Of a stretch of DNA of 64,000 nt, positions 699 to 59,109 are shown in pieces. The translations under genes and the position numbers were made by a program. The notes under the pieces were generated by a model that worked only from the letters and a program-made list of their open reading frames with translations, was not told the DNA's origin and made no database searches. Position 1 is the stretch's first letter. Each line of letters begins with the position of its first letter. Location of the stretch: positions 372,001 to 436,000 of the forward strand of contig NZ_FOUS01000008.1 in the NCBI RefSeq assembly GCF_900114915.1. The letters run 5' to 3'. The stretch is from Bradyrhizobium sp. Rc3b (GTDB lineage Bacteria > Pseudomonadota > Alphaproteobacteria > Rhizobiales > Xanthobacteraceae).

Positions 699-1793
699 TC
701 ACGTCTCGGGCGGATAGAGATGAACGTCGCCGCAATAGTCCACGATACGATAGCGCGTTTCGGCTTCCGCATCACCCGCATGGGGTGCGGTATTATGCGG
801 CGCCAGGACGTAGCTCGGCCCCACCGGGGATTTGCCGGCGCCCCCGGGAATGTCGATGACATAGTCCGGCTGACATAGCCCTGACACCCGCCCGCGCAAC
901 TGCCGCATCAACTCCTGCCCCTCCGCCAGCGTCGTGCGCAGATGCGCCGTGCCCGGCGCGAGGTCGCCGTGATGCAGATAATAGGGCTTGATCCGGCATT
1001 CGACGAAAGCTCGCATCAAATCCGACAGAGCGGCAATGTTGTCATTGACCCCGCGCAACAGCACGGACTGGCTCACCAGGGGAATTCCGGAATCGACGAG
1101 CCGCGCGCACGCGGCGCGCACCGGTCCCGTCAGTTCGCGCGCATGATTGGCATGCAGCGCCACCCAGGTGGCCGCGCCCTCGACCTTGAGCGCCGCAACC
1201 AACTCGTCGCTGATGCGCGCGGGATCGGCCACGGGCACGCGGGTGTGAAGGCGGATGATCTTGACGTGATCGATTGCCGCGAGTTCGGCCATGATCTCGC
1301 CCATCCGGCGCGGCGACAGCATCAGGGGATCGCCACCGGTCAGGATCACTTCCCAGATCTCGTGATGCGAACGGATGTAATCGATCGCCGCGCGATAGGC
1401 GCCGTCCGACAGCGCGCTGTCCTTGCCGGGGCCCACCATCTCGCGGCGGAAGCAGAAGCGGCAATAGACCGCGCAGACGTGAACGAGCTTGAACAGCACT
1501 CGATCGGGATAGCGATGCACGATCCCTGCGACCGGCGAGTGCGGATGATCGCCGATCGGATCGGCGTCCTCGCCCGGCTGCATCTCAAGCTCCGCGGCGC
1601 TCGGAACGAATTGCCGTGCGATGGGATCGTCGGGGTCGGATGTATCGATCAGTTCGACCAGCGCCGGCGTGATCGCCACAGCATAGCGTGCGGCAACGCG
1701 TTCGAGCGCCGGCAGCGCTGCTGCAGGCGCCAGACCTTCGGCGACGAGCTCAGCCGGCTCGCGCAAAGTGCGTGCAAGGTTCGTTTTCGTCAT
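699..1793 (-). CDS. epmB: EF-P beta-lysylation protein EpmB (lysine 2,3-aminomutase family, radical SAM)
   Basis: Converts (S)-alpha-lysine to (R)-beta-lysine, the group that EpmA attaches to elongation factor P. The 364-residue protein has the radical-SAM cysteine cluster CAVYCRFC at residues 107, 111 and 114, followed by RREM. The PLP-binding and substrate regions of the KamA family follow (EVILTGGDPLML, LHTRVPV, YYLHHGDLAPGT). The GAGKSPVGPSY stretch near the C-terminus is family-typical. Its ATG overlaps the stop of epmA by four bases (ATGA), indicating translational coupling. Together with efp next door, the context favours EpmB over a catabolic lysine aminomutase. Confidence 0.93.
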   Translation of the reverse strand: MTKTNLARTLREPAELVAEGLAPAAALPALERVAARYAVAITPALVELIDTSDPDDPIARQFVPSAAELEMQPGEDADPIGDHPHSPVAGIVHRYPDRVLFKLVHVCAVYCRFCFRREMVGPGKDSALSDGAYRAAIDYIRSHHEIWEVILTGGDPLMLSPRRMGEIMAELAAIDHVKIIRLHTRVPVADPARISDELVAALKVEGAATWVALHANHARELTGPVRAACARLVDSGIPLVSQSVLLRGVNDNIAALSDLMRAFVECRIKPYYLHHGDLAPGTAHLRTTLAEGQELMRQLRGRVSGLCQPDYVIDIPGGAGKSPVGPSYVLAPHNTAPHAGDAEAETRYRIVDYCGDVHLYPPET

Positions 1794-2854
1794 GTCTCAC
1801 TAGACGCTTCATTTGCAGGTGGCGTCCAAACTACTTGATCGATCCGCGATGCGCCGCTTGCCAGCATCACCAGCCGGTCGAGGCCGAGGGCGACGCCGCT
1901 GGCCTCCGGCATTGCCGCAACTGCGGCCAGAAAGTCCTCGTCGAGCGGATAGGCCTCGCCGTAGCGGCGCTGCTTCTCCGTCATCGATTCCGTGAAGCGT
2001 TTTCGCTGCTCCTCGGCATCGGTCAGTTCCCCAAAGCCGTTGGCGAGCTCGACGCCGCAGGCGTAGACCTCGAACCGCTCGGCAACCCTGGGATCGTCAG
2101 CCTTCACCCGTGCCAGCGCCGCCTCTGGAGATGGGTATTCGAACAAAATGGTCAAACGCCCCTGCCCCAGATGCGGCTCGATGTGCTCGACGAGCACCTT
2201 GCTGAAGATGTCGGACCAGGTGTCGTCCCCGGCCACACGGACCTTGCTACTCGCCGCCTCGGCCAGAGCGGCACGGTTACCCTCGCCGTCCCTGATTGTC
2301 GACAGCAGGTCGATGCCGGCGAACCGTTCGAAGGCGCCCGCTACGGTCAGCAGCTCGGGCTCGGCGAAGGGATCGGCGGTCCGCCCCCGGAACGAGAAGG
2401 TCCCGATGCCGGTCGCCTGCGCCGCACGGGCGATGACGACGACGCAATCGGCCATGATGGCGTCATAGGAGGCGCCTGCCCGATACCATTCCAGCATGGT
2501 GAATTCGGGCAGGTGCAGGTCGCCGCGCTCACGGTCCCGGAACACCCGGGCGAGCTCGAAAATCCGCGTCTCGCCCGCCGCCAGCAGCTTCTTGCAGGCG
2601 AATTCGGGCGAAGTCCGCAGATACCGGAGGGCTCGGCTGCCGTCCGGCCGCACGATCTCGGTCCGGGGGGCGTGCAGATGGGTCTCATTGCCCGGGGAGA
2701 CCTGGAGAACGGAGGTTTCGACCTCCACGAACCCCTGCTCGGCGAAAAAGCCCCGTAGAGACCCGGTAATGGCCCCCCTGGCCTGGAGGAATGGCCGACG
2801 GTCGAGATGCCGCCCGGGCGACCAGAACGGTGAGACGGGCTTGTCCCCAGCCAT
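1790..2854 (-). CDS. epmA: EF-P--lysine ligase EpmA (GenX/PoxA, truncated class II lysyl-tRNA synthetase)
   Basis: Attaches (R)-beta-lysine to the conserved lysine of EF-P. The 354-residue protein is a class II aminoacyl-tRNA synthetase catalytic core without the N-terminal anticodon-binding domain, which separates it from LysS (about 500 residues). Motif 2 is visible as ARVFRDRERGDLHLPEF and motif 3 as GVALGLDRLVML near residue 330. VSPGNETHLHAP in the N-terminal part is typical of the GenX family. The ATG at 2854 follows the natural start of homologues. It is divergent from efp (162 bp apart) and its stop overlaps the epmB start, so the modification enzymes form one operon beside their target. 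Confidence 0.94.
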   Translation of the reverse strand: MAGDKPVSPFWSPGRHLDRRPFLQARGAITGSLRGFFAEQGFVEVETSVLQVSPGNETHLHAPRTEIVRPDGSRALRYLRTSPEFACKKLLAAGETRIFELARVFRDRERGDLHLPEFTMLEWYRAGASYDAIMADCVVVIARAAQATGIGTFSFRGRTADPFAEPELLTVAGAFERFAGIDLLSTIRDGEGNRAALAEAASSKVRVAGDDTWSDIFSKVLVEHIEPHLGQGRLTILFEYPSPEAALARVKADDPRVAERFEVYACGVELANGFGELTDAEEQRKRFTESMTEKQRRYGEAYPLDEDFLAAVAAMPEASGVALGLDRLVMLASGASRIDQVVWTPPANEASSET

Positions 2855-56814: not shown

Positions 56815-57882
56815 GTGGTCAAGGTTCTCGACGAACACGAACGCACAATGGCGTTCGCCGAGGTAGCGCTCGGGCAGATCCGATCGCTGCGGCAGACGGC
56901 AATTCCCCGCAACTATGAGATTTGGTACGTCTACGCCACCGGCTACAACGCGCCTCTCAACAAGATCGTCAACGAGACGCTGGCGCGCAGCGGCAAGCTG
57001 ACTGAAGCCGATCTCGAGCAGATCTACGAGACCTATCTCTCCCACATCAAGACCACCGACCGCATCGACAAGGTCGGCGCGCGCGTCATCGGCGAGATCG
57101 ACGACGTGATGAAGGTCTTGAGCGATGCACTCGGCATGACCGGCTCCTACGATGCCAGCCTGTCGGGAGCCACCGAGAAACTGGCGTCGGCCAAGAACCG
57201 CGAGCAGATCAAGGCGATCGTCGAGACGCTGCTGCGTTCGACCAGCGAGATGCGCGAGACCAACAAGACGCTGGAAGACCGGCTGACGCTGTCGAAGAAC
57301 GAGATCAGCAATCTCCAGCAGAGCCTGGAGGCGATCCGCGCCGAGAGCCTGACCGATCCGCTCACGGGCCTTGGCAACCGCAAATATTTCGACCGCATGA
57401 TCGACATGGCGGTGCAGAGCGCCCTCGCCTCGGGCGAGCCGCTGTCACTGCTGCTGTTCGACATCGATCATTTCAAGTCGTTCAACGATTCCTACGGCCA
57501 TCTCACCGGCGACCAGGTGCTGCGGCTCGTCGGCCTGTCGCTGAAGCAGACCATCAAGGGCCAGGACATCACCGCGCGCTATGGCGGCGAGGAATTCGCG
57601 GTCGTGCTGCCCAACACCGCTCTGCGTCAGGCCCTCACGGTGGCCGACCATATCCGCCGCGCTGTGATGGCGAAGGAATTGAAGAAGAAGTCCACCGGCG
57701 AGATCCTCGGCCGCGTCACCATCTCCGTCGGCGTCTCCATGCTCAAGCCGGGCGACGACACCGACGCGCTGATCGAGCGTGCGGATGCCTGCCTCTACGC
57801 CGCCAAGCGCAACGGCCGCAACCGCGTGATCTGTGAAGCCGATCCGGAATACGCGGTCGAAACCCACAGCCGGGTGGCGTAA
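56815..57882 (+). CDS. diguanylate cyclase (GGDEF domain)
   Basis: Makes cyclic di-GMP. The 355-residue soluble protein has an N-terminal helical region with a conserved-looking start (AFAEVALGQIRSLRQTAIPRNYEIWYVYATGYN), a coiled coil (residues 140-175) and a GGDEF domain from 176. The active-site motif is GGEEF at 257-261. The inhibitory I-site position holds KGQD rather than RxxD (248-251), so product inhibition may be weak. GTG 56815 opens the frame. It lies 166 bp after the helicase, so co-transcription is uncertain. Confidence 0.92.
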   Translation: MVKVLDEHERTMAFAEVALGQIRSLRQTAIPRNYEIWYVYATGYNAPLNKIVNETLARSGKLTEADLEQIYETYLSHIKTTDRIDKVGARVIGEIDDVMKVLSDALGMTGSYDASLSGATEKLASAKNREQIKAIVETLLRSTSEMRETNKTLEDRLTLSKNEISNLQQSLEAIRAESLTDPLTGLGNRKYFDRMIDMAVQSALASGEPLSLLLFDIDHFKSFNDSYGHLTGDQVLRLVGLSLKQTIKGQDITARYGGEEFAVVLPNTALRQALTVADHIRRAVMAKELKKKSTGEILGRVTISVGVSMLKPGDDTDALIERADACLYAAKRNGRNRVICEADPEYAVETHSRVA

Positions 57883-57899: not shown

Positions 57900-57989
57900 G
57901 TAGGGTGGGCAAAGGCCCCTGAGCGCCGTCCCCACGATCTCGGCATGATTATTTCGAACCGTGGGCACGCTTCGCTTTGCCCACCCTAC
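57900..57989. repeat. intergenic repeat element, family B copy 1
   Basis: A 90-bp element with 15-bp perfect inverted ends (GTAGGGTGGGCAAAG ... CTTTGCCCACCCTAC). The inner CATGATTATTTCGAAC segment matches copy 2 at 58618-58709, in the same orientation. Confidence 0.85.
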
Positions 57990-58080: not shown

Positions 58081-58611
58081 GTGCCCAATCCCCATGATTT
58101 TCACACGCCGCAATCGTCCTACACCAGGGATGAGCTGCTGAGATCGAGCGACGGCGGCTATTTCGGGCCCGGCAATGCGCAATTGCCCGCGCCGCCGATG
58201 CTGATGATGGACCGCATCACGGAAATCAGCCTGGACGGCGGCGAATTCGGCAAGGGCCATATCGTCGGCGAGCTGGATATCGTGCCGGACCACTGGTTCT
58301 TCGATGCCCATTATTGCGGTGACGCGATGATGCCACCGACGCTCGCACTGGACGCCATGTGGCAGATGGTAGGCTATTGGCTCGGCTGGTCAGGCTCACC
58401 GGGCAAGGGCCGCGCCATCGGCGTCGGCGAAGTCGAGTGCACGGGCGCCGTCACGCCGGAGACGCGATGCGTGCGTTACGAGGTCGCCATGAGGATGGTC
58501 AGGCGCGGCAAGCTGGTGCTCGGGATAGCCGACGGCCGCGTGCTCGCCGACGGCATCTGCATGTTTACGGCGAAGGACATGAGGGTCGGCCTGACCAAGG
58601 CCGCAGACTGA
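58081..58611 (+). CDS. FabA-like 3-hydroxyacyl-ACP dehydratase, divergent active-site loop
   Basis: The 176-residue hot-dog protein aligns along its length with FabA (3-hydroxydecanoyl-ACP dehydratase/isomerase): LPAPPMLMMDRITEIS, GKGHIVGELDI, WQMVGYWLGW, GVGEVECTG. The catalytic His77 and Asp91 (FFDAHYCGD ... ALDAMWQ) keep the FabA spacing of 14. The loop between them differs: FabA has VMPGCLGLD, here MMPPTLALD, so the glycine implicated in the oxyanion site is proline. Activity may be changed. GTG 58081 follows AAAGGA. No fabB is adjacent. The gene lies between two direct copies of a repeat. Confidence 0.82.
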   Translation: MPNPHDFHTPQSSYTRDELLRSSDGGYFGPGNAQLPAPPMLMMDRITEISLDGGEFGKGHIVGELDIVPDHWFFDAHYCGDAMMPPTLALDAMWQMVGYWLGWSGSPGKGRAIGVGEVECTGAVTPETRCVRYEVAMRMVRRGKLVLGIADGRVLADGICMFTAKDMRVGLTKAAD

Positions 58612-58617
58612 GCTCTC

Positions 58618-58709
58618 GTAGGGGTGGGCAAAGGCGCGCACAGCGCCGCGCCCACGATCTGCGCATGATTATTTCGAACGGTGGGCACGCTTCGCTTTGC
58701 CCACCCTAC
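58618..58709. repeat. intergenic repeat element, family B copy 2
   Basis: A 92-bp element with the same inverted ends and inner segment as copy 1 (57900-57989), in the same orientation. It supplies the last 12 codons and the stop of the TfoX-like gene on the minus strand. Confidence 0.85.
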
Positions 58710-59109
58710 GGACCGTCTTCTTGACTGGCTTCTTCGCCAACCGCTTCTTGGCAACGGACTTCTTCGACGCAACCTTCTTCGGCCGCGTCTTCACCTTGGC
58801 GCGCTGGGCGGCGGCGAGTGCCGCCCTCGCCCATTGCGCGAGCTCGGCGGAATCGTCGAACAGGCGCGCCGGCAGCTCCCAATAGGAGTTGACCACCACG
58901 GTCTTGGCGCGGGTCGAATATTGAAATGGTTTTGAGCCTTCGGCTTCAAAGTCCGGGATCGTCACCTCGTCTGCGCGCAAGAACAGGCCGGCACGCAGTG
59001 ACAGCGCGAAGTTGATGCCGTCGGCGGAGATGCCGTAGCCGGAGAACATTTTTCGGATGGTGACGGGGCCGAAATCGGCGAACAGGTCGATCAGGAATTC
59101 GCGGTCCAT
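58669..59109 (-). CDS. TfoX N-terminal-domain protein with Lys-rich tail
   Basis: A 146-residue protein. Residues 1-100 are the TfoX/Sxy N-terminal domain (DREFLIDLFADFGPVTIRKMFSGYGISADGINFALSLRAGLFLR). Then comes a long basic tail (RPKKVASKKSVAKKRLAKKPVKKTVR). The final VGKAKRAHRSK and the stop are encoded within repeat copy 2, so the native end was replaced or extended by the element. Its role may be nucleic-acid binding; TfoX is linked to competence in other bacteria, but here no such link is shown. Confidence 0.78.
   Translation of the reverse strand: MDREFLIDLFADFGPVTIRKMFSGYGISADGINFALSLRAGLFLRADEVTIPDFEAEGSKPFQYSTRAKTVVVNSYWELPARLFDDSAELAQWARAALAAAQRAKVKTRPKKVASKKSVAKKRLAKKPVKKTVRRVGKAKRAHRSK

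Follow-up and report, generated by a model that had tools for sequence, protein, structure and literature searches.

Introduction

FabA, the 3-hydroxydecanoyl-ACP dehydratase/isomerase described in E. coli and P. aeruginosa, is a textbook enzyme, whose His70 reacts with a classic alkyne inactivator. A crystallographic study of P. aeruginosa FabA describes H70 and G79 of one subunit hydrogen-bonding an inhibitor, the triazole ring of which fills the volume of the thioester. In the same study a water molecule joins the inhibitor to D84, which belongs to the other subunit, as does the acyl tunnel, and an H70N mutant is called inactive (PMC4840175). Two further papers likewise assign the two catalytic residues of one site to different subunits (PMC516016, PMC2698920). 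A division of labour is found in HadAB of Mycobacterium tuberculosis, a heterodimer of the hot-dog fold in which a single site is live: HadA binds the acyl chain and HadB has the catalytic dyad, along with a hydratase 2 motif (PMC4491049). In the case of the trypanosomatid prozyme, a dead paralogue is reportedly kept to modulate an active enzyme; the putative role discussed below may be likened to it, although prozyme-type dead activators are different proteins.

Here we report on a FabA paralogue of Bradyrhizobium sp. Rc3b, encoded in a window of 64,000 nucleotides (the whole stretch of DNA that was analyzed), which we name FabA2 (gene fabA2) for the purposes of this report. It shares length, fold and His-Asp spacing with FabA. 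In contrast to FabA, its oxyanion glycine is replaced by proline and the following cysteine by threonine, it scores below the TIGR01749 cut-off, and its gene is not located beside fabB, unlike the fabA of the same genome, which thus encodes an ordinary FabA as well. A search of open-licence full texts for a second or dead FabA returned nothing on this paralogue among the titles and abstract starts listed, which is weak evidence of absence.

FabA2 is a FabA-type protein with an altered oxyanion position

The fabA2 gene occupies positions 58081..58611 of the window on the plus strand and encodes 176 aa in an open frame with a GTG start, with AAAGGA 9 bases 5' of the GTG. Its product is a FabA-type hot-dog protein. 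It matches the Pfam FabA model (PF07977) with 138.2 bits and the NCBIfam model of bifunctional FabA (NF003509) with 238.4 bits, well above the cut-off of 124, and narrowly misses the cut-off of the TIGR01749 fabA equivalog (228.6 vs 238.15 bits). The genome's own ordinary FabA clears both models (295.0 bits for NF003509 and 293.9 bits for TIGR01749). FabA2 is an accessory paralogue of a lineage distinct from this protein, to which it is 54% identical by tblastn and with which it forms a gapless alignment shifted by 6 residues (88/173 identical).

The original prediction had described a FabA homologue with proline at the oxyanion glycine, and the profile matches and the gapless alignment confirm it. 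His77 (58309..58311, plus strand; E. coli His70) and Asp91 (58351..58353, plus strand; E. coli Asp84) align with His71 and Asp85 of the own FabA (Met counted) and keep the FabA spacing, as had been proposed. Pro86-Thr87 (CCG ACG, 58336..58341, plus strand) sits on Gly80-Cys81 of the own FabA, that is, Gly79-Cys80 in E. coli numbering, so that MMPPTLALD indeed stands in place of VMPGCLGLD. Further differences in the loop, from the own FabA to the window protein, are Cys76 to Ala, Phe78 to Tyr, Pro82 to Ala, Val83 to Met and Gly89 to Ala (window numbering). Phmmer alignments to three solved FabAs give the same residue placement; a correct alignment does not shift the glycine, and misalignment is ruled out by the lack of gaps against the own FabA. 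Chance or sequencing error is likewise ruled out as the source of the proline, which is present in 23 of 83 closer-group sequences (defined below), the window's included. FabA2 of the window therefore has the His and Asp of a FabA at their usual spacing and lacks both the oxyanion Gly and the Cys that follows it. Proline has no amide hydrogen to donate to the oxyanion bond. The argument that the glycine amide, which proline cannot supply, helps hold the thioester is backed by the P. aeruginosa FabA structure (PMC4840175).

A ColabFold monomer model of FabA2 (32 sequences, mean pLDDT 76, pTM 0.75, with pLDDT below 50 at residues 28-33 and 38-40) was compared with the PDB, and 36 of the best 37 matches were FabA entries at 50-57% identity, with a moderate fit (TM about 0.7, rmsd about 6-7). 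In the model the central helix begins with residue 86, and proline is usually tolerated at the start of a helix. This predicted placement would suit a FabA-type dehydratase that has changed its oxyanion contact and still catalyses, more slowly or with a preference for another acyl chain, a reading that we consider possible but rather unlikely. The chemistry would then be that of His77 and Asp91, with the N-terminal end of the helix and an adjacent amide replacing the lost bond, a mechanism that we regard with similar doubt. The window protein keeps both the His and the Asp, and on this basis residual dehydratase/isomerase activity may be possible.

The 8.4 Mb genome encodes three PF07977 proteins besides FabA2 of the window. 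One is the typical FabA for which the prediction had advised a search; it is encoded elsewhere in the genome, carries the VMPGCLGLD motif and is followed by the gene for ketoacyl-ACP synthase I, fabB. The second is FabZ (TIGR01750, 168.3 bits). The third is FabZ-like and, by eye, its gene lies between acyl-carrier-protein-like and ketosynthase-like genes. Such a row of acyl-carrier-protein-like, FabZ-like and ketosynthase-like genes, read by eye at positions 1500-2720 (minus strand) of locus L051, resembles the acpXL very-long-chain fatty acid cluster. Among 195 Bradyrhizobium genomes, the FabA query was matched in 194, and 192 of these matches reached an E of about 1e-100 or lower; the matches in G033 and G164 were weaker, and G089 had none.

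Distribution of FabA2 and sequences compared

FabA2 was matched in at least 126 of the 195 Bradyrhizobium genomes, the window's own included. At least 71 of these harbor the closer group defined below, and 55 harbor the distant group only among the matches listed. The remaining 69/195 have no clear FabA2 among the matches listed, which extend to E of about 1e-57, so that weaker matches fall outside the count and weak or broken copies may be missed. Broken fabA2 copies carrying a frameshift or stop do occur (L045, L046, L047 and L052), and three of them (L046, L047 and L052) are frameshifted closer-group loci.

We compared the same-genus FabA2 loci together with the best 80 of 588 named loci. 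Matches below 64% identity or spanning fewer than 150 residues were excluded, the four loci with split frames were left out of the counts, and codon alignments omit insertions relative to the query. The closer group comprises proteins at least 81% identical to that of the window (83 unique, the window's included) and the distant group those at 66-80% (86 proteins), which with the own FabA gives 170 unique proteins. At the DNA level, merging of identical sequences reduced FabA2 from 196 to 171 (83 closer and 88 distant, other-genus loci added) and ordinary FabA from 61 to 60. The FabA control (n = 60) consists of the own FabA, 29 of the 30 most similar loci (the thirtieth being the own FabA again), 20 further loci and 10 other-genus loci, each with 80% identity or more to the query, which favours conservation; the mean synonymous difference is nonetheless similar (0.339 against 0.371).

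Outside the genus, a family-level sample gave a FabA2 match at 72% in 2 of 142 genomes (G279 and G286) among the matches listed, the other matches listed being about 48-59% identical. In another genus (g20), six genomes gave two FabA matches each, neither of which is FabA2 by identity. Across the class, a strict nucleotide pattern of the FabA motif was found in 1/385 genomes, the window's own, when it specified Pro, Ala or Ser at this position, and in 75/385 when it specified Gly; neither version catches FabAs in which the flanking residues or codons differ, and the sample holds two same-genus genomes, the window's included. Substitution by Pro, Ala or Ser as a general pattern among FabAs of the class is thus unsupported. 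In a contig titled Candidatus Sulfopaludibacter (L123), FabA2 is nested among Hyphomonas sequences, which may reflect transfer or mis-binning.

The active-site loop is variable in FabA2 and nearly frozen in FabA

At the oxyanion position, the 83 closer-group sequences carry Gly (n = 37), Pro (n = 23), Ala (n = 21) or Ser (n = 2), followed by Ser (n = 62) or Thr (n = 21) and never by Cys. Position 77 is H in 75, Y in 5, N in 2 and L in 1, and Asp91 is present in 83/83; the window and 74 others keep both His and Asp. Many closer-group FabA2s may be ordinary enzymes, judging from the joint presence of His, Gly and Asp in 33/83. In the distant group (n = 86), His is lost in 13, Gly is kept in 85, Cys in 81 and Asp in 86. 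Over all unique FabA2 sequences, other-genus loci included, Asp is found in 171/171 and His is lost in 22. The four residues are invariant in ordinary FabA (60/60).

A closer-group DNA tree (83 sequences) was built without the codons in question. On this tree we count 14 changes at position 86, between G, A, P and S, 8 at position 77 and none at the Asp. The unchanged Asp is only compatible with FabA2 acting as an Asp donor, since 73 of the 176 FabA2 sites never change. Relaxation extends along the loop: codons 75-89 (58303..58347, plus strand), which include the catalytic His and the oxyanion position, show 6.67 changes per site in the 83 closer-group sequences and 0.27 in the 60 ordinary FabAs (100 vs 4 changes), and codons 90-103, which encode the Asp-bearing central helix, show 10 vs 7 changes. 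The contrasts, with p-values that are rough since tree changes are not fully independent, are those of loop vs helix, closer group against FabA (Fisher p 7e-5), of loop vs rest of the protein, 100/573 in the closer group against 4/224 in FabA (p 1e-9), and of the same comparison for the TetR-linked members described below, which do not differ significantly from FabA (14/380 against 4/224, p 0.23). Stretches 123-140 and 158-174 of FabA2 are relaxed too, and what sets the loop apart is its near invariance in FabA. An apparently stronger conservation of the helix in FabA2 than in FabA (0.78 vs 1.78 changes per site over 90-107) was dropped, as the FabA figure is mostly due to site 104 (19 changes).

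These patterns bear in both directions on a still catalytic dehydratase. All 23 Pro forms retain His, as such an enzyme would be expected to, yet His itself is absent from 8/83 closer-group sequences, the entire loop is freed and not a single residue, and ordinary FabA has retained its Gly in 60/60.

The proline may also have an origin of its own. Pro forms are scattered among Gly forms on the tree, and the base differences within codons 75-91 suggest that a loop tract was exchanged between strains: here the window differs by 16 bases from its nearest overall relative (L014), which is of Gly type, by 14 and 16 from two further Gly types, and by 6-9 from Pro types L006, L013, L027, L068 and L161. 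It is very improbable, however, that the case reduces to a short and functionally neutral loop tract acquired from a Pro-type relative, as recombination would account for the origin of the allele and not for the tolerance of Pro, Ala and Ser.

Purifying selection on fabA2

By counting estimates, made throughout this section without recombination correction, median pairwise dN/dS is 0.133 in the closer group, 0.173 in the distant group and 0.072 in FabA. The corresponding pN/pS to the nearest neighbour is 0.122 for Gly (n = 33), 0.135 for Ala (n = 17), 0.143 for Pro (n = 23), 0.225 for Ser (n = 2) and 0.153 for sequences that have lost His (n = 8), with 0.069 for FabA. Constraint on Pro forms is close to that on Gly forms, which would also be in line with retained catalysis.

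The fabA2 gene is under purifying selection even in clades without the catalytic His. In the His-to-Leu clade (L044, L181, L185 and L190), dN/dS is 0.10-0.26 in 6/6 pairs, with bootstrap upper bounds of 0.19-0.42, and two His-to-Tyr pairs give 0.15 and 0.13; the His-less pairs span dS of 0.15-0.57. Three control pairs, TetR-linked and intact, are comparable (0.07, 0.20 and 0.14), so that constraint is not clearly weaker in the His-less clades than where the site is intact. Pro clades show 0.06-0.14 in 11/12 pairs, the twelfth (L006-L027) giving 0.44 with few changes and an interval of 0.09-1.79.

Neither mark of a pseudogene was found in fabA2: its 176-aa frame is open, and dN/dS stays away from 1 both at the closer-group median and among the His-less pairs. 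This bears on the idea of a redundant copy in slow decay, in which catalysis is relaxed, decay is recent and the protein has no function of its own. Such a course would fit a dN/dS about twice that of FabA, the frameshifted and stop-bearing copies and the genomes without a clear FabA2 among the matches listed. We judge it improbable, given that dN/dS is far below 1 also within His-less clades at the divergence reported above, that the central helix is fixed while the loop varies, and that the locus is kept in 45/47 cases (see below).

The suggestion that the protein is non-catalytic or has a different role is partly supported by these results. "Non-catalytic" gains weight because orthologues lose His itself, and a different role gains weight because fabA2 is still under purifying selection. 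On the other side, the proline is not peculiar to the window protein, the position it occupies changes repeatedly on the tree, and Pro and Gly forms are similarly constrained.

Genomic context and association with a TetR-family gene

In the window, fabA2 lies between a GGDEF-domain gene upstream (56815..57882, plus strand) and a TfoX_N-domain gene downstream (58669..59109, minus strand), the latter followed by suf-type genes. The same arrangement, with GGDEF on one side and TfoX_N and suf-type genes on the other, was found in 45 of 47 unique closer-group loci of at least 5 kb; of the two exceptions, one misses only the outermost marker and the other shows the upstream side only. No FabB match was found near fabA2 in any of these 47 loci. 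The distant group lies elsewhere, except for tandem copies: in L061, L071 and L072, a distant-group copy is located directly upstream of a closer-group copy. Direct copies of a palindromic repeat of about 90 bases flank fabA2 in the window (57900-57989 and 58618-58709). The exact 29-base core of this repeat occurs 84 times in the genome, and a 16-base core was present on both sides of fabA2 in only 4 of 79 closer-group loci examined.

A TetR-family gene (TetR_N) is found directly upstream and on the same strand in 42 of 88 distant-group loci (L162 included). Four of these matches are partial and were counted as not full, leaving 38 with a full TetR. TetR-linked loci occur in Bradyrhizobium, Devosia, Caulobacter and Phenylobacterium, and the combination of TetR and FabA2 common to Bradyrhizobium, Devosia and Caulobacterales looks like a transferable regulated module. 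Besides the TetR gene, no recurrent neighbour of the distant group pointed to a pathway, and many of the listed frames look spurious.

All 38 distant-group members with a full TetR keep His and Gly-Cys, and His is lost in 14 of the 50 without (0/38 against 14/50, Fisher p 0.0002). The 14 losses all fall within 35 TetR-less members on the Bradyrhizobium side, where the loop shows 3.67 changes per site, against 0.93 in the 38 TetR-linked members. On the Caulobacter/Hyphomonas side, 15 TetR-less members have lost no His and show 0.87 loop changes per site. Loss of TetR as the cause of erosion was thus not upheld, and the association of TetR absence with erosion is a correlation within Bradyrhizobium and close kin. 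An independent-pairs test on a tree of every distant-group row and one third of the closer group yielded too few informative pairs (0-2 out of 7) to bear on the association. In three Hyphomonas genomes (L117, L124 and L128; 3/3 searched), the only strong FabA match is the FabA2-type locus, at 61-63% to the FabA query. Two strong FabA matches were found in seven other genomes (Caulobacter, Devosia and a Caulobacteraceae bin).

Discussion

FabA2 is a paralogue that co-occurs with an ordinary FabA and, in the closer group, occupies a fixed locus; its active-site loop is eroded and its catalytic His repeatedly lost under purifying selection. The reading that we tentatively favour, short of confidence, is that FabA2 has lost some or all of its catalysis and is retained as a partner protein, perhaps in a mixed dimer with FabA. 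The ancestral FabA2 was probably a working FabA, encoded in many hosts behind a TetR-type regulator gene. On Bradyrhizobium branches that lack this regulator, selection would no longer protect the half-site of His and oxyanion Gly, and would still protect the central helix, the Asp and much of the remaining protein, leaving FabA2 as mainly a non-catalytic or half-catalytic partner. Among the observations in favour of this reading, TetR-linked relatives keep His in 38/38, compared with 36/50 among other distant-group members, and the FabA2 lineage provides the only strong FabA match in the three Hyphomonas genomes searched.

Because a site draws His and Gly from one subunit and the Asp and tunnel from the other, one of the two sites in a mixed dimer would still be complete. 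FabA would supply His and Gly, and FabA2 would supply Asp and the acyl tunnel, giving one site alive and one dead; this could adjust the length or unsaturation of the chains, or how much active FabA there is. The narrower form, a semi-pseudoenzyme that gives the dimer only its Asp and acyl tunnel, so that the one live site has a changed tunnel, we hold to be unlikely. The division of labour in HadAB would be a precedent for a split between FabA and FabA2. Unlike in HadAB, there is no adjacent partner gene, the neighbours of fabA2 being the GGDEF and TfoX_N genes, and this counts against a partner role. So do the retention of His and Asp in the window protein and 74 others, the relaxed stretches outside the loop, the 15 TetR-less members that are not eroded and the three frameshifted closer-group loci. 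Loss of catalysis in the Pro form, dimerization with FabA and a physiological role would each follow from the reading that we favour and are inferred.

If the narrower form is true, Bradyrhizobium would have an asymmetric FabA for adjusting its unsaturated or very long fatty acids. As a FabA lineage maintained by selection while the catalytic His and oxyanion Gly vary, FabA2 would amount to a natural experiment on those residues and would be a candidate bacterial pseudoenzyme in fatty-acid synthesis. For annotation of the family, FabA2 illustrates that the model NF003509 can be passed despite an altered active site.
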